64,000 bases of DNA, taken from an uncultured delta proteobacterium. GTDB taxonomy: Bacteria > Myxococcota_A > UBA9160 > JAFDET01. Shown in pieces: positions 41,723 to 48,924 of the stretch; the first letter of the stretch is position 1; each line of letters opens with the position of its first letter. The notes under the pieces were generated by a model that worked only from the letters and a program-made list of their open reading frames with translations, searched no databases and was not told the origin of the DNA. The stretch is taken from positions 62,001 to 126,000 of the forward strand of contig CAMYLJ010000004.1 of NCBI GenBank assembly GCA_947259215.1, read 5' to 3'. The position numbers and the translations under genes are program-made.

Positions 41723-43174
41723 CTAGCCGACGGCGCCTTCGAGGCTCACACCCAGGAGCTTCTGGGCCTCGACGGCGAACTCCATGGGCAGCTCGCGCAG
41801 GACCTCCTTGCAGAAGCCGTTCACGATCATGGAGACGGCGTCCTCTTCGGAGATGCCGCGCTGGCGGCAGTAGAAGAGCTGGTCCTCACCGATCTTCGAG
41901 GTGGTGGCCTCGTGCTCGACGGTGGCCGAGGAATTCTTCACCTCGAGGTACGGGAACGTGTGGGCGCCGCAGCGGTCGCCGAGCAGCAGAGAGTCGCACT
42001 GCGAATAGTTGCGCGCGCCCTCCGCCTTGGGCTGCACCCGCACCAGGCCGCGATAGGTGTTCTGTCCGAACCCCGCGGAGATGCCCTTGGAGAGGATGGT
42101 GCTCTTCGTGTTCTTGCCCAGGTGGATCATCTTGGTGCCGGTGTCCGCCTGCTGGTGGTTGGCGGTGAGCGCCACCGAGTAGAACTCGCCCACCGAGTCG
42201 TCGCCCTGGAGGATGCAGCTCGGGTACTTCCAGGTGATGGCCGAGCCGGTCTCCACCTGGGTCCAGGAGATCTTGGAGCGCTTGCCCCGGCAGGCGCCGC
42301 GCTTGGTCACGAAGTTGTAGATCCCGCCCTTGCCGTCCTTGTCGCCGGGGTACCAGTTCTGGACGGTGGAGTACTTGATCTCGGCGTCGTCGAGGGCCAC
42401 CAGCTCGACCACCGCGGCGTGGAGCTGGTTCTCGTCACGCATGGGAGCCGTGCAGCCCTCCAGGTAGGACACGTAGGCGCCCTCGTCCGCCACCAGCAGG
42501 GTGCGCTCGAACTGGCCCGTGTTGGCCGCGTTGATGCGGAAGTAGGTGGAGAGCTCCATGGGGCAGCGCACGCCCTTCGGGATGTAGGCGAAGGACCCGT
42601 CGCTGAAGACCGCGGAGTTCAGGCAGGCGAAGAAGTTGTCGCTGTAGGGAACCACCGAGCCCAGGTACTGGCGGATCAGGTCGGGCCAGCGCTGAACCGC
42701 ATCCGAGAAGGAGCAGAAGAGGATGCCCTGCTTCTCCAGCTCCGCCTTGAAGGTGGTGCCCACGGAGACGCTGTCGAAGACCGCGTCCACCGCCACGCCG
42801 GCCAGCCGCTTCTGCTCCTCCAGGGGGATCCCGAGCTTCTCGTAGGTGCTCAGCAGCTCGGGGTCCACGTCGTCGAGGCTCTCGACCAGCTGCTGCTTGG
42901 GCGCCGCCCAGTAGGAGATCGCCTGGTAGTCGATCTTCGGGTAGTGGACCATGGCCCAGGTCGGCTCGGTCTCCCTCTCCTCCAGCTCCAGGAAGCGGCG
43001 CAGGGCCTTGAGGCGCCACTCGAGCAGCCACTCGGGCTCGTCCTTCTGGGCGGAGATGAAGCGTACCGTGCTCTCGTCGAGTCCCGGCGGAAGCGTCTCC
43101 TGCTCGACGTCGGTGGTGAAGCCGTACTCGTACTCGCGCTCGGCCAGGCTCTCGGGGCTGTGGGACTCTGCCAT
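41723..43174 (-). CDS. sufB: Fe-S assembly protein SufB
   Basis: 483 residues, standard for SufB. Typical segments: [18 protein letters not shown], the [21 protein letters not shown] block, [25 protein letters not shown], and the C-terminal [21 protein letters not shown] with conserved His/Cys. It is the site of cluster assembly in the SufBC2D complex. It follows the Rrf2 regulator by ten bases. Confidence 0.97.
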
Positions 43175-43184
43175 GGGTCGCGTC

Positions 43185-43625
43185 CTATCGGATCCCGAGA
43201 TCCTCGAAGGGGATCCGGTCGGAGGGGTTGGCCAGGTCGGCCAGGGTCACGCGATCGAGCGTCTGCGCGATCGCGCGGTTGATCTTCTCCCAGGGCGAGC
43301 GCACGTCGCAGCTGGGCTCGTGTTCGCAGCGGCCCGGGGCCAGCCCGCACTCGGTGAGGGCCACGGGTCCCTCGAGCGCCGCGATGATCTTGGCCACCGA
43401 GATCTCCTGGGGAGGCCGGGCCAGGGCGTAGCCGCCGCGGGCGCCGCGGTGGGAGTCCAGCAGGCCCTCCCGGGCCAGGGTCTTCAAGACCTTGCCCACC
43501 ACCGGGAACGGCAGCCCGGTGTCGGCGGAGAGCTCCCGGGCGTTGTGGGTGGCGCCGGCGGGGTCCCGCGCCAGCCGGGCCATCAGCACGATGCCGTAGT
43601 CGGTAATCTTGGAGAGGCGCAGCAT
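43185..43625 (-). CDS. Rrf2-family Fe-S-type regulator of the SUF operon
   Basis: 146 residues. An N-terminal winged helix ([39 protein letters not shown]; wing [13 protein letters not shown]) is followed by three cysteines, Cys93, Cys100 and Cys106, spaced like the 2Fe-2S ligands of IscR. It probably senses Fe-S status and represses the operon it heads (it precedes sufB by ten bases). Candidate operator dyads overlap its promoter. Confidence 0.93.
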
Positions 43626-43720: not shown

Positions 43721-45283
43721 CTAGCTTGCGATTCTAGCGGAGCCGTCTGCCGACATCTTCTCGATGGCCACGTCGAGGTTGCGGGCCAGGGTGTCCATGT
43801 ACTCGGAGAGCGCCTTGTGGGTCACCGCGAAGGAGCAGGCCTCCTTGAAGGCCCGGGGTCGGCGGGCCAGGGTCTCGAGCATCAGGCGCAGGGTGAAGCG
43901 TGCCCGGGCGGGCGACGCCCGGAACACGGTCTGCACCAGCACCCGCCACAAGAGGCGCAGGTCGCTGGCGGTGATGTCGCGGCCGCCGTTGGCCTGGTCG
44001 CCGCGATGGAGCAGGAACTCCATGGTGCGCCGGCGGTAGTTCCCGAAGTCGTACAGATCGCCGATCAGGTCCCGGTAGCCGCGGTAGAGATCGATGCGGC
44101 TCATGCTCTTCGGCACGATGTTCGAGAACACGAACTGGTCGCCGGTGCTCTCGGCCACGAGTCGCCCCTCGTTCTTGACGCGGTCGTAGAGCGGCGTCTT
44201 CGGCATGGCCTGGAGCATGCCCGTCATCGACACGGGAATGCGCGCCTCCTGGATGAAGCGCAGCTGCTCCTCGAAGATGCTGGGATCGTCGGCGTCGAAG
44301 CCCACGATCATGCCGGCCTGCACCTGCATCCCGTGGTCGTGGATCTTGCGGATGTCCGCGATCATGTCGCCGCGCGTGTTCTGGTGCTTCTGCGTCTCTT
44401 GGAGCGACTCCAGGCGCGGGCTCTCGATGCCGATGAAGATCGTCGTGAAGTTGGCGTCCTGCATCAGCTTCAGGAGTTCGTCGTCCTGCGCCACGTTCAG
44501 CGAGACTTCGGTCTGGAAGCTGATGGGGTGGCCGTGCTCGCGCCCCCAGACGCCGAGCTCGCGCAGGAGATCCTTGGCGACGTTCTTGTTGCCGATGAAG
44601 TTGTCATCCACCAGGAAGACCTGACGCGCGCCGAGGGCGTGGAGCGCCTTTACCTCCTCCATCACCTGGTCGACGCTCTTCACGCGCGGCCGACGGCCGT
44701 AGATCACGATGATGTCGCAGAACTCGCAGCGGAAGGGGCAGCCGCGCGCGAACTGGATCGTCATGGCGTGGTAGTCTTCCACCTTCATGAGGTCGAAGCG
44801 CGGCTTCGGCGAGAGCGTCATGTCCGGCTTCTCCGCCGGCCGGTACTCCGCCTTCCACTCGCCCTTTTCGAAGTCGCGCAGGAACTCGGGCCAGGTCTCC
44901 TCGGCCTCGTCCACGAAGAGCACGTCGCAGTGTCCGCGAAGCTCTTCCGGGCAGAGCGACGCGTAGGGCCCACCGACGATCACGAAGCGCCCGCGCCGGC
45001 GGAACTCGGCGATCATCTCGAGCATGCGCTCCTTGTGGATGATGTAGCCCGTGATGCCGACGATGTCGGCCTCCACGTCGTAGTCCACCTCTTCGACGTT
45101 CTCGTCGCAGAGGGTCACGTCGTGCCAGGGGGGCGTCAGGCCCGCAACGGTGGGCATCGAGAGGTTGGGGAAGACGCACTTCTTCTGGATCAGGGGCAGG
45201 ATGCGATCGTAGGTCCAGAAGCTCTCGGGATTGCGCGGCGTGACGAGGTGGATACGCATGCGACCGATTGTCGCATCACGCAT
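43721..45283 (-). CDS. B12-binding-type radical SAM protein (HpnP-related)
   Basis: 520 residues (512 if the second ATG, 45259, is used). An N-terminal Rossmann-like B12 domain (about 10-150; VIVGGPYASLCPEEL) lacks the usual DxHxxG lower-ligand motif. The radical SAM core has the cluster motif FARGCPFRCEFCDI (CX3CX2C) and VFLVDDNFIGNK, and IFIGIESPRLESLQETQK. The C-terminus fits the DUF4070 extension shared with the hopanoid C-2 methylase HpnP. It may methylate an unactivated carbon or act on a lipid. It lies 46 bases after the LuxC-like gene on the same strand, with an AT-rich patch between that could hold its own promoter. Confidence 0.8.
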   Translation of the reverse strand: MRDATIGRMRIHLVTPRNPESFWTYDRILPLIQKKCVFPNLSMPTVAGLTPPWHDVTLCDENVEEVDYDVEADIVGITGYIIHKERMLEMIAEFRRRGRFVIVGGPYASLCPEELRGHCDVLFVDEAEETWPEFLRDFEKGEWKAEYRPAEKPDMTLSPKPRFDLMKVEDYHAMTIQFARGCPFRCEFCDIIVIYGRRPRVKSVDQVMEEVKALHALGARQVFLVDDNFIGNKNVAKDLLRELGVWGREHGHPISFQTEVSLNVAQDDELLKLMQDANFTTIFIGIESPRLESLQETQKHQNTRGDMIADIRKIHDHGMQVQAGMIVGFDADDPSIFEEQLRFIQEARIPVSMTGMLQAMPKTPLYDRVKNEGRLVAESTGDQFVFSNIVPKSMSRIDLYRGYRDLIGDLYDFGNYRRRTMEFLLHRGDQANGGRDITASDLRLLWRVLVQTVFRASPARARFTLRLMLETLARRPRAFKEACSFAVTHKALSEYMDTLARNLDVAIEKMSADGSARIAS

Positions 45284-45329
45284 CCCCAGATCTGTGAAAA
45301 TTGCGTAAAGAGCCCTTCGGCGCGCTGCG

Positions 45330-46559
45330 TCATGCGCCCGGCAGGAGGCGGCGGAGGACGGGCAGCCCGTCCCGGTGCCAGGCCAGGGGAGGCGCCTGGA
45401 GCGATCCCGGCGCGCAGGTGCGCGTGGCGCCGGCCCCCCGGAGCGCCGCCTCCAGCCGCAGCGTGTCAGCGGCGAAGCCCGCGAGGGCGACGCCTGCCAG
45501 CTTCGCGCCCAGGGGCCGGATCCCCTCGATCAGGGCCGCCGCGTCGGTCACGGGGTGGATGCGCAGGAAGCGGTGGAGCGGCGCCGGACGCGGCTGGGCG
45601 TCCGGCTCGACCACGACGCTCCAGCGCGCCCCGGGATCCGCGAGCAGCTCGGCGCCTCGCATCTCGGCCAGCGCGCGTTCGTGGGCCGCCGCCGCCTCGG
45701 CTTCGGGAGAGGCGGTGCCGCGCGGCCAACGCGCTTCGGCGTCGGCCAGGGCGTCGGCCAGCGCATGGGCGGCACGCCCGGCGGCCGCCGTCGGTCCCGC
45801 GACGTAGACCGCGACCGGCGAGCAGCATCCGAGCTGGTCCCAGAGCGCCGTGTCGAGGGCCAGGCCGCGGGCCGCCTCCGCCAGCGACGCCTCCTCCAGC
45901 GCGGCGGGCCCGAGGGCGGCCAGCGAGATGCGGTGCCCGTGCGCCACCAGCCTCCGCGGCGGCAGCACCCGCGCCGCGAGCGAGGAGACCGCTGTGTCGG
46001 AGCCGGTGACCACCACGCAGTCGGCCTGGCAGAGGGCGTCCATACACGCCTCGTCGTCGTGGCGGAAGTCCGCCAGCGCGACGCACTGCCCGAGCGCGGG
46101 ATCGAGCTCGGCGAGCGCGCCGGCGACGGCGGGCGCGGTGACGGGATCGTGGGCCGAGGGCTTCGCCAGCACGGGCGAGCGCACGCACAGCGCCGCCACG
46201 ACCTCGAGCAGTGCGGGCATGGGGATGGCGCCGGCCAGGATCGCCGCGGTCGTCGGGGCGCCGTGGAAGGCCTCGGCGTCGCCGAGCTCCACGTCGACCA
46301 GCGCGCGCAGCGCGGCTCCGGTCCAGCTGGCGAGCCCGCGCGCGAGGCCCTCGCGCACGATCTCGGGGGAGAAGCCGGCCGCGGCCGGCAGCTCTGTCTC
46401 GATCCGCCGCCGCGCCGGATCCGTCGGGTCGCGCAGGCGCTCGAGCAGCGCGCCCAGCACATCCAGCACTTCGCGCGCCGGCCGCTTGCGGAGCGCGTCG
46501 CCAGCCGCGTGCAGGCGCCGGAGCGACGCGCGCACGGCGTCCGGCGACGCCGTGCTCAC
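45330..46559 (-). CDS. LuxC-like acyl-CoA/acyl-enzyme reductase
   Basis: 409 residues. It fits the LuxC family (aldehyde-dehydrogenase fold, NADPH-dependent reduction of an acyl thioester to aldehyde). The nucleophile segment WDQLGCCSPVAVYV places the catalytic Cys at 245; VVVTGSDTAVSSLAARV and RLVAHGHRISLA fit the nucleotide-binding part. It is about 70 residues shorter than luminous LuxC. The GTG start overlaps the stop of the LuxE-like gene (GTGA). No LuxA, LuxB or LuxD is present, so the aldehyde is not for light emission. Confidence 0.82.
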   Translation of the reverse strand: MSTASPDAVRASLRRLHAAGDALRKRPAREVLDVLGALLERLRDPTDPARRRIETELPAAAGFSPEIVREGLARGLASWTGAALRALVDVELGDAEAFHGAPTTAAILAGAIPMPALLEVVAALCVRSPVLAKPSAHDPVTAPAVAGALAELDPALGQCVALADFRHDDEACMDALCQADCVVVTGSDTAVSSLAARVLPPRRLVAHGHRISLAALGPAALEEASLAEAARGLALDTALWDQLGCCSPVAVYVAGPTAAAGRAAHALADALADAEARWPRGTASPEAEAAAAHERALAEMRGAELLADPGARWSVVVEPDAQPRPAPLHRFLRIHPVTDAAALIEGIRPLGAKLAGVALAGFAADTLRLEAALRGAGATRTCAPGSLQAPPLAWHRDGLPVLRRLLPGA

Positions 46560-47650
46560 GCCGCGTCGCCCGCCAGCATCTCGTCGGCGGCCAGCGAGCA
46601 GCCGCGGGCCTCGGCGCCGGACTCGCGCCCGAGCACCTCGAAGCCGTCGGCCAGGCGCCGTCCCAGATCCGCGGTCTGCACGGCCAGCACGCTTCCCGTG
46701 TTGGCGAGGTCCAGGATCTGGAGGATGCCCAGCTCGCCGTCGGGCACGTCGGCCCCGCCGTCGCGCGCGACGCAGCGCACCCGGGCCCAGGGGGGCGAGA
46801 GCTTCCGCCGCGGCTCGTCCGGGTGCAGCAGCACCGAGTCGTAGAATTGGCTTGCGAGCTCGGTCATCCCGTACTGGTTCACCACGCGCTCCGGCGGCAC
46901 GCCCAGGCGTTCGGCGATCCCGGCGTAGAGTGCGTCGCGGGTCACCTCGCGGCTGCGTCCCTTGAAGCCGCCGGTCTCCATCACGCGGCTCCCCGCCGGC
47001 AGCGCCAGCCGGGTGCCCCGCGTGGCCAGCTGATCCAGCAGGTGCACGAAGGCGAAGGCCGTCCCGCACAGGCACAGGGGCTCGCCGGCGTCGGCCAGTC
47101 CCCGTGCCGCAGCCTCGGGATCCGGCTCGAAGGCGCTGCCCGCCGCACCCCGCGCGTGCACCACCCGATCGAACATGTGGGCGAGGGACGAGTCCGGTGC
47201 CTGCTGCGCGTTCGGGCCGAGGACCAGGAAGGTCATGCGCGCGTCCGGCGCCAGATCCGGCAGCAGGTGGCGCTCGAAGCTCGGGAGCAGCGACGCCTCG
47301 TAGACGGCGAGCGTGTCCAGGTGCAGCTCGCCGCGGGCGCCTGCCGCCGTACCGCTGGTGCGGAATGTGTGGTGGGTGCGCTCGCAGGGAAACGAACGCA
47401 GCGCCATCTCCTTGAAGGCCCCTGTCGGCACCGCCGGAATCTCGCGCCACGAGCCCAGGCTCGCGGGCGCGACGCCGCGCCGCTGGCAGAGCCGGCGGTA
47501 GGGCACGCAGCGGGCGTACTGGAACGCGAAGAGGTCGCGGGCCAGCGCATCGAAGCGCACGTCGTCCGCGGCGCCGTCGCCGGCGCGTGCTTCCTGCGCC
47601 CACGCGATCAGACGCCGGTCGAGGGCGCGTCGCTCCCGGTCTCCCGTCAC
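46556..47650 (-). CDS. LuxE-like acyl-protein synthetase
   Basis: 364 residues of the LuxE/PaaK branch of adenylating enzymes. The phosphate loop is TSGTAAGARG (98-107), and VNQYGMTELASQFYD follows near residue 260. In luminous LuxE a cysteine close to the C-terminus carries the acyl group; here Cys351, 14 residues from the end in RGCSLAADEML, is in the matching place. It would activate a carboxylic acid as acyl-AMP, hold it as a thioester and hand it to LuxC. GTG start and stop overlap the neighbouring genes on both sides (GTGA). Confidence 0.82.
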   Translation of the reverse strand: MTGDRERRALDRRLIAWAQEARAGDGAADDVRFDALARDLFAFQYARCVPYRRLCQRRGVAPASLGSWREIPAVPTGAFKEMALRSFPCERTHHTFRTSGTAAGARGELHLDTLAVYEASLLPSFERHLLPDLAPDARMTFLVLGPNAQQAPDSSLAHMFDRVVHARGAAGSAFEPDPEAAARGLADAGEPLCLCGTAFAFVHLLDQLATRGTRLALPAGSRVMETGGFKGRSREVTRDALYAGIAERLGVPPERVVNQYGMTELASQFYDSVLLHPDEPRRKLSPPWARVRCVARDGGADVPDGELGILQILDLANTGSVLAVQTADLGRRLADGFEVLGRESGAEARGCSLAADEMLAGDAA

Positions 47651-48924
47651 GCTGCGCACTCCGCCACGACGTCGATGGCGGCCCGCAATGCGTCTTCGTC
47701 GATGACCAGGGGCGGCGTCAACGAGAGCACCTCGCCGTCGTCGCCGGAGGGGATCGTGATCACGCCTCGGCGCAGCGCTGCGGCGCAGGTCTCGCCGCAG
47801 GCGTCCGGATCGGAGAACTCCACCGCCAGCAGCAGGCCGAGGCCGCGCACGTCCACGACGCCCTCCCGCGCCTCGAAACGCCCGCGCAGGTGCGCCAGTG
47901 CGCGGTCGCCGACTTCCGCGGAGCGCTCCACCAGCTTCCCGTCCTCCAGCACCGCCAGCGACGCCAGCGCCGCGGCACAGCCGGGCGGGTGGCCCAGGAA
48001 GGTCTGGGTGTGCAGCGCCTCGCCGGCCGACGGGGGCCAGCGGTCCATGATCTCGGCACGACCGAGGCAGGCGGAGATCGGCATGCCCGAGGAGAGGCCC
48101 TTGCCGACGCACAGCAGGTCGGGCACCACCTGGTCGTGCTCGCAGGCGAACCAGCGCCCGGTGCGGCCGAATCCCGTGTAGACCTCGTCGGCCACCAGCA
48201 GCCAGCCCTCTTCGTCGCACAGCTCGCGCAGGGCGCCGAGGAAGCCGCGGGGAGCAATGCGCTCCCCGCCGCGGCCCTGGACGGGCTCCACCAGCAGCGC
48301 GCCCACCGGCTCGGGGCAGCTGTGCGCCGAGCGCATCACGTCCTCCAGGTCGCCGAAGCGCGCGAAGACCGTGGCGCCGGGGAGCCGCGCCAGGAAGGGC
48401 TCGCGGAAGGTCGGGCGCCAGCTGACCTCGAGGGCGCCGAAGGTGAGCCCGTGGTAGGCCCCGGCGAAGGCTACGACGCCCGCGTGACCCGTCGCGAGCT
48501 GCGCGGTCTTGAGGGCGATCTCCACGGCGTCGGAGCCCGACGACCCGAGCACCGCCTTGGCGGGGCCGCCGCCGGGGAAGCGCGCCGCCAGGTGCTCCAG
48601 CAGCTCCACCTTGACCGCGGCCGGGTGGACGTCGCCCATGGCGTGCAGCAGCTCCCCCGACTGCTCCCGCACCGCATCCACCACACGCGGGTGCGCGTGC
48701 CCGGCGTTGGCCACGCCGAAGCCGGCGGAAAGATCCACGAAGCGGTTGCCGTCCACGTCCCAGACGTTCGCGCCCGCGGCGCGCTGCCAGAAGATCGGAG
48801 GCGCAGGCTGGCTGCAGGTGACGTTGCGGCTCTCGACCCGCGCCAGGCGCTCGGCCAGGGCCGTCGAGCGCGGGCCCGGCACCGCGGTGACGAGCTCGGG
48901 GGGCAGCGTCCGGGGAGCCGACAC
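47647..48924 (-). CDS. Class III (omega-type) aminotransferase
   Basis: 425 residues, fold-type I PLP enzyme. DLSAGFGVANAGHAHPRVVDAV, SSGSDAVEIALKTAQ, FAGAYHGLTFGAL, ADEVYTGFGRTGRWF (Asp246) and the Schiff-base Lys275 in VGKGLSSGMPIS are all in place. Class III enzymes move amino groups to or from terminal aldehydes. As first gene of a coupled set with LuxE- and LuxC-like enzymes it could aminate the aldehyde they form, or work in reverse. The start is a GTG with only a weak ribosome site. Confidence 0.9.
   Translation of the reverse strand: MSAPRTLPPELVTAVPGPRSTALAERLARVESRNVTCSQPAPPIFWQRAAGANVWDVDGNRFVDLSAGFGVANAGHAHPRVVDAVREQSGELLHAMGDVHPAAVKVELLEHLAARFPGGGPAKAVLGSSGSDAVEIALKTAQLATGHAGVVAFAGAYHGLTFGALEVSWRPTFREPFLARLPGATVFARFGDLEDVMRSAHSCPEPVGALLVEPVQGRGGERIAPRGFLGALRELCDEEGWLLVADEVYTGFGRTGRWFACEHDQVVPDLLCVGKGLSSGMPISACLGRAEIMDRWPPSAGEALHTQTFLGHPPGCAAALASLAVLEDGKLVERSAEVGDRALAHLRGRFEAREGVVDVRGLGLLLAVEFSDPDACGETCAAALRRGVITIPSGDDGEVLSLTPPLVIDEDALRAAIDVVAECAA

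Follow-up and report, generated by a model that had tools for sequence, protein, structure and literature searches.

A conserved aminotransferase-LuxE-LuxC gene unit of Myxococcota as a probable replacement for QueC and QueF in queuosine biosynthesis

The tRNA modification queuosine is widespread. On the pathway to it, QueE makes 7-carboxy-7-deazaguanine (CDG) and QueC begins by activating CDG with ATP; two ATP are used by QueC and two NADPH by QueF. QueC makes the nitrile preQ0, which QueF reduces to preQ1, and bacterial queuosine synthesis is described as requiring QueD, QueE, QueC and QueF, the genes from which profiles are called (PMC11130926). Here we analyse a three-gene unit encoding a class III pyridoxal-phosphate (PLP) aminotransferase (AT), a LuxE-like adenylating acyl-protein synthetase and a LuxC-like acyl-thioester reductase. 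The unit lies in a 64,000-nucleotide stretch of DNA, referred to below as the window (contig CAMYLJ010000004.1, positions 62,001 to 126,000, assembly GCA_947259215.1), from an uncultured delta proteobacterium (Myxococcota_A; UBA9160). We propose that the unit probably replaces QueC and QueF, making preQ1 for queuosine.

Each part of this chemistry has a described counterpart. The ATP-, cysteine- and reductase-dependent steps are established for the luminous LuxE and LuxC proteins, and the ArgB-ArgC-ArgD and LysZ-LysY-LysJ systems combine carboxylate activation, reduction and class III transamination in the way proposed for the unit, although they activate by phosphorylation and use another reductase family. 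TamA/TamH (tambjamine YP1) have been shown to take a C12 fatty acid from acid through thioester and aldehyde to amine; they resemble the unit in adenylating activation, a cysteine reductase for the thioester and a class III aminotransferase, but are encoded in a natural-product cluster as fusion proteins that include an acyl carrier protein and a reductase of the AAR type (PMC9594044). A Pfam scan of AT, LuxE and LuxC returned no carrier-protein or AAR domain. With the lux operon (PDB code 7xc6) the unit shares the protein families, the adenylation motifs, both cysteines and the conversion of an acid to an aldehyde; unlike it, the unit is accompanied by neither LuxD nor LuxAB, would deliver its aldehyde to an aminotransferase, has a deazapurine as its proposed substrate and scores below the luminous cut-offs. 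QueC and QueF have no protein family in common with the unit, yet share with it the proposed start and end compounds, the place in the pathway (after QueE and before Tgt and QueA) and a first step of ATP-dependent activation of the CDG carboxylate. They proceed through a nitrile and a four-electron reduction, whereas the unit would proceed through an aldehyde and transamination, preQ0 never being formed.

The only difference between CDG and preQ1 lies at one carbon, which bears COOH in the former and CH2NH2 in the latter; acid activation, aldehyde formation and transamination would therefore yield the same product as the QueC and QueF route. In the proposed sequence, LuxE would use ATP to adenylate the carboxylate of CDG, giving CDG-AMP, and the acyl group would move from AMP onto the C-terminal Cys351 of LuxE as a thioester. 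It would then pass to Cys245 of LuxC, where reduction by NAD(P)H would give 7-formyl-7-deazaguanine, and AT would transaminate this aldehyde to preQ1, feeding Tgt and QueA. We infer the substrate, intermediates, direction, amino donor and cofactor of this route. Given the ATP and NADPH used by QueC and QueF, such a bypass would be the cheaper one. We consider it likely that this preQ0-independent route from CDG through 7-formyl-7-deazaguanine to preQ1 exists and is the main route in Myxococcota, occurring also in Verrucomicrobia and UBP4. Two lines of comparative evidence point to preQ1 synthesis, an operon with QueE in Verrucomicrobia and an anti-correlation of QueC and QueF with LuxE.

In two Verrucomicrobia metagenome-assembled genomes (MAGs; loci L176 and L178), QueE, an open reading frame (ORF) of 86-96 amino acids, AT, LuxE and LuxC follow one another on one strand with tight spacing. 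The QueE of L178 passes the TIGR04349 model with 303.7 bits against a cut-off of 300. The short ORF between QueE and AT (L176:8399-8689, L178:8405-8665) has no Pfam match in either copy and no NCBIfam match in the L178 copy, and is possibly an extra protein of the pathway. At one locus from Myxococcota (L207), QueE lies 3 kb from the unit with opposite-strand genes in between. In the window itself, the unit is unlinked to any queuosine gene.

The anti-correlation emerged from a single, evenly drawn set of 237 Myxococcota genomes, searched separately for each gene. LuxE presence was scored at E ≤ 1e-20; true QueC was taken as E ≤ 1e-50 and true QueF as E ≤ 1e-20, cut-offs that were placed after the gap in E-values had been seen. 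LuxE was found in 192 genomes (a count that takes in some LuxE of a kind lacking the aminotransferase, described below), QueA in 225, the PTPS/QueD family in 215, true QueC in 29 and true QueF in 24, with QueC accompanying QueF in 23 of the latter. None of the 192 LuxE-positive genomes has true QueF, against 24 of the 45 LuxE-negative ones, and true QueC is present in 3 of 192 versus 26 of 45 (Fisher p ~8e-21 and ~2e-19, respectively, with kin genomes treated as independent). QueA is nevertheless retained in 183 of the 192. Outside the window's order, most genomes give a strong match to QueE of the TIGR04349 type. QueE and QueA occur together in 174 genomes: 146 have LuxE without QueC or QueF, 16 have QueC without LuxE, three have both and nine have neither. 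The first group comprises 112 of the 150 unit-bearing genomes outside the order and, with a divergent QueE, 34 of the 38 inside it. In these 146 genomes, something must therefore fill the step from CDG to preQ1.

AT-LuxE-LuxC is a conserved unit and not a chance cluster. LuxE was found in 57 of 61 relatives, and the order AT-LuxE-LuxC is kept in nearly all of 40 relatives' loci, mostly with Rrf2-suf genes downstream. Of 181 LuxE loci, some of them represented twice, 160 have AT beside LuxE in the same orientation, and 143 of these have LuxC as well; the co-occurrence called for by a first-pass annotation, which had grouped these genes with a radical-SAM neighbour, thus extends across Myxococcota for the three genes. 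The matching named contigs come from MAGs that carry the label Myxococcota, Myxococcales or Deltaproteobacteria and include one from UBA9160. All three genes were also found in contigs of Verrucomicrobia and UBP4, while Gemmatimonadetes contigs carry LuxE-LuxC only; the viral contigs searched held no LuxE relative. In the neighbourhoods compared outside the window's order, the flanking genes vary from family to family, so it is the three genes that make up the unit, and no wider neighbourhood is conserved phylum-wide among the loci compared across Myxococcota.

The catalytic residues of all three enzymes are intact. The LuxE-like protein (PF04443, 59.9 versus a cut-off of 24.9 bits) retains the SG (99-100) and YGMTE (260-264) motifs and Cys351, the latter in 118 of 118 homologs, while the LuxC-like protein (PF05893, 141.6 versus 21 bits) retains Cys245 in 106 of 106. 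Alignment with chains E and A of 7xc6, respectively, places both residues, which had been put forward as the acyl-carrying cysteines from the sequence alone, on the cysteine motifs of that structure, the C-terminal cysteine of LuxE included. Both proteins fail the corresponding luminous equivalogs, the long-chain fatty acid ligase NF052244 (52.8 versus 550 bits) and LuxC NF052251 (56 versus 750 bits). AT scores 322.5 bits to Aminotran_3 (PF00202), and among distinct LuxE-linked homologs the PLP-binding Lys275 is present in 124 of 124 and Asp246 in 123 of 123. It is below every known equivalog cut-off (best 310 versus 552 bits) and so falls outside the GABA, ornithine and acetylornithine aminotransferase groups, membership of the first two of which had been raised as an objection to an unusual role. 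The positions of the gateway Glu and the carboxylate-binding Arg, which we take to be E211 and R398 of GabT, were assigned in AT from an alignment to PuuE. All 121 homologs covering the first position have Arg218 (EPxxGRGG) where GABA and ornithine aminotransferases have the gateway Glu; at position 401, the equivalent of Arg398, the homologs have Ser, Gln, Ala, Gly, Thr, Val or Cys and none has Arg. From the sequence pattern, Arg218 may hold the carboxylate of the amino donor instead of the missing Arg. The ArgD of the same genome keeps the usual Glu and Arg. An AlphaFold model of AT (mean predicted local distance difference test score, pLDDT, of 88) has GABA transaminases as its best structural matches, a resemblance between predicted and known folds that does not discriminate the substrate. 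A role of the unit in replacing ArgD, BioA or HemL was rejected, each of these being present separately in the genome.

The genome from which the window comes holds other parts of the pathway. QueA and Tgt, which both exceed the curated cut-offs, are adjacent on contig 27; a QueE-like protein for which QueE models are the best matches is encoded on contig 19, and PTPS-family genes lie on contig 10. QueC (best E 2.9e-4) and QueF were not found in this genome, the completeness of which is estimated at 95.7%. The divergent QueE-like radical-SAM protein recurs in 57 of the 61 relatives, below all QueE cut-offs (L235:8556-9320; L281:8074-8832 in the source genome), and by sequence is probably the QueE of the window's order. 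Contig 10 (L231, 2398-2787) gives two PTPS-family matches, one with a motif that resembles pterin PTPS over canonical QueD; tandem PTPS-family copies also occur in relatives.

Several observations weigh against the assignment of the unit to queuosine synthesis. The QueE of the order is divergent, that of the source genome reaching 79.7 bits against a cut-off of 206, the PTPS proteins of the order are divergent too, and the one in this genome may not be QueD. At the unit loci tested, no preQ1 riboswitch or other Rfam element was found. Since the Fisher tests count kin genomes as independent, the p values overstate the number of independent replacements; genomes with QueC are spread over about 14 families. 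At E ≤ 1e-20 the LuxE count also includes some LuxE of families f39 and f42, which belong to the kind without AT. Three genomes (G120, G173 and G192) carry LuxE together with a QueC-family protein, the LuxE of G173 belonging to the clade without AT. Six families of Myxococcota (f18, f25, f36, f38, f47 and f48) have LuxE and LuxC without an adjacent AT, and in three f18 genomes the surroundings of QueE, QueA and QueD showed no AT either; in these families AT may lie elsewhere in the genome or another aminotransferase may serve. Contig 41 of G120 has two neighbouring QueC-family genes (84757-87909), possibly a non-queuosine QueC with a role in defence or DNA modification.

The first-pass annotation had read the three genes as taking a free acid through an aldehyde to an amine, on a lipid or alkyl substrate, with a hopanoid-related role as an alternative. 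The enzymatic logic stands, given the conserved unit and its intact catalytic residues, and was probably right; the substrate was probably guessed wrongly, since the operon with QueE and the exclusion of QueC and QueF point to the acid of a nucleobase, CDG, with preQ1 as the amine. It is true that luminous LuxE and LuxC, to which 7xc6 aligns the present proteins, act on long-chain fatty acids, and that TamA/TamH turn a fatty acid into an amine by the same logic (PMC9594044). However, conversion of a free fatty acid into a fatty amine seems very unlikely with scores this far below the luminous equivalogs and with no conserved lipid gene beside the unit in the neighbourhoods read, and it would leave both the QueE operon and the QueC/QueF exclusion unexplained. 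A hopanoid role, in which AT would be HpnO-like and the neighbouring radical-SAM protein HpnP- or HpnJ-like, is barely credible. The genome does encode a squalene-hopene cyclase, and the radical-SAM protein combines B12-binding and DUF4070 domains with weak matches to the HpnJ and HpnR models, but these (59.7 versus 577.6 and 52.1 versus 650 bits) fall far short of the equivalogs, the gene is missing or unlinked in most relatives, and the cyclase lies on a separate contig (C56) with no linkage to the unit; beyond the cyclase no evidence for such a role was found, the Hpn models compared being HpnJ and HpnR.

The unit might instead make some other small amine, such as a diamine or an amino-acid-derived compound, with shared ancestry alone accounting for the exclusion of QueC and QueF. 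The relatives of AT include putrescine, GABA and ornithine aminotransferases, and the limited number of families with QueC-positive genomes implies that independent events are few. We nevertheless give this explanation little credence, as the 146 genomes with QueE and QueA but without QueC or QueF need the step filled, the QueE-AT-LuxE-LuxC operon sits in another phylum, and ArgD, BioA and HemL are separately encoded in the source genome. That the unit-bearing genomes salvage preQ1 or preQ0 and that the unit is unrelated to queuosine is highly improbable. Salvage is common in bacteria lacking QueD, QueE, QueC and QueF (PMC11130926), but QueD and QueE are typically missing from salvagers too, whereas QueE is kept in most unit-bearing genomes (the 112 of 150 and 34 of 38 given above), and uptake of preQ0 would still require QueF.

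If the unit does convert CDG to preQ1, a bioluminescence-type acid reductase together with an aminotransferase would close a gap in the pathway throughout a phylum, and preQ0 would be no obligate intermediate of queuosine synthesis. A function would also be assigned to a large group of LuxE and LuxC genes in non-luminous bacteria. Genome surveys scored on QueC and QueF would have misread these bacteria as salvagers, and such calls of makers and users would have to be corrected. In the open literature, with subscription journals and preprints largely outside the coverage, we found no paper joining LuxE with queuosine or naming a bypass of QueC and QueF; an earlier description may exist elsewhere.

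The features of the locus are collected in Table 1. The four genes that had been described from the sequence were confirmed in the window, with a GTGA overlap at each of the AT/LuxE-like and LuxE-like/LuxC-like junctions and 46 bases between the LuxC-like gene and the radical-SAM ORF. All Pfam matches of the four proteins exceed the curated cut-offs.

Table 1. Positions of the unit and its neighbours in the window
Feature	Position	Strand	Details
Class III PLP aminotransferase (AT)	48924-47647	minus	425 aa; Pfam Aminotran_3
LuxE-like adenylating acyl-protein synthetase	47650-46556	minus	364 aa; Pfam LuxE
LuxC-like acyl-thioester reductase	46559-45330	minus	409 aa; Pfam LuxC
B12-binding radical-SAM DUF4070 protein	45283-43721	minus	520 aa; Radical_SAM + B12-binding + DUF4070
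Rrf2-type SUF regulator, first suf operon gene	43185-43625	minus	TIGR02944 over cut-off

The radical-SAM gene adjoins the unit in only six of the 40 relatives' loci. Its ortholog occurs in about 14 of the 61 relatives, in several of them unlinked to the unit; in one genome (G022), LuxE lies centrally on a 218-kb contig and the radical-SAM gene is on a different one. It was therefore rejected as a step of the pathway, and the earlier suggestion that it acts on the same lipid gives way to that of an occasional neighbour. The protein, of which roughly a quarter of the order has an ortholog, matches no equivalog tested. A promoter-like site lies at 43675-43647, just upstream of the Rrf2-type SUF regulator, and across most of the order the suf operon (41723-43625 in the window) adjoins the unit, a neighbourhood that seems to be order-specific.

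A second kind of LuxE-LuxC pair, without an aminotransferase, is found on plasmids of Pantoea (L032) and Azospirillum (L033), at loci L199 and L303 and in families f39 and f42. The LuxE proteins of the two plasmids are about 40% identical to that of the unit, and this kind differs in forming a clade of its own with other motifs and, in Pantoea, in having an SDR gene alongside. Among the f39 genomes, two also have the complete AT-LuxE-LuxC unit, and in another AT and LuxE lie together where the contig ends. At two f18 loci (L190 and L194), with no AT beside them, LuxE-LuxC is next to dnaN-like, recF-like and uracil-5-methyltransferase-like genes. In family f36, the gene immediately ahead of LuxE encodes a class I aminotransferase (L216:6548-7750), no class III AT having been found beside LuxE there. 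Finally, in one relative LuxE and LuxC form a single open frame of 806 amino acids (L035:1104-3521; same contig as L104), possibly a natural fusion or else a stop lost in the MAG.

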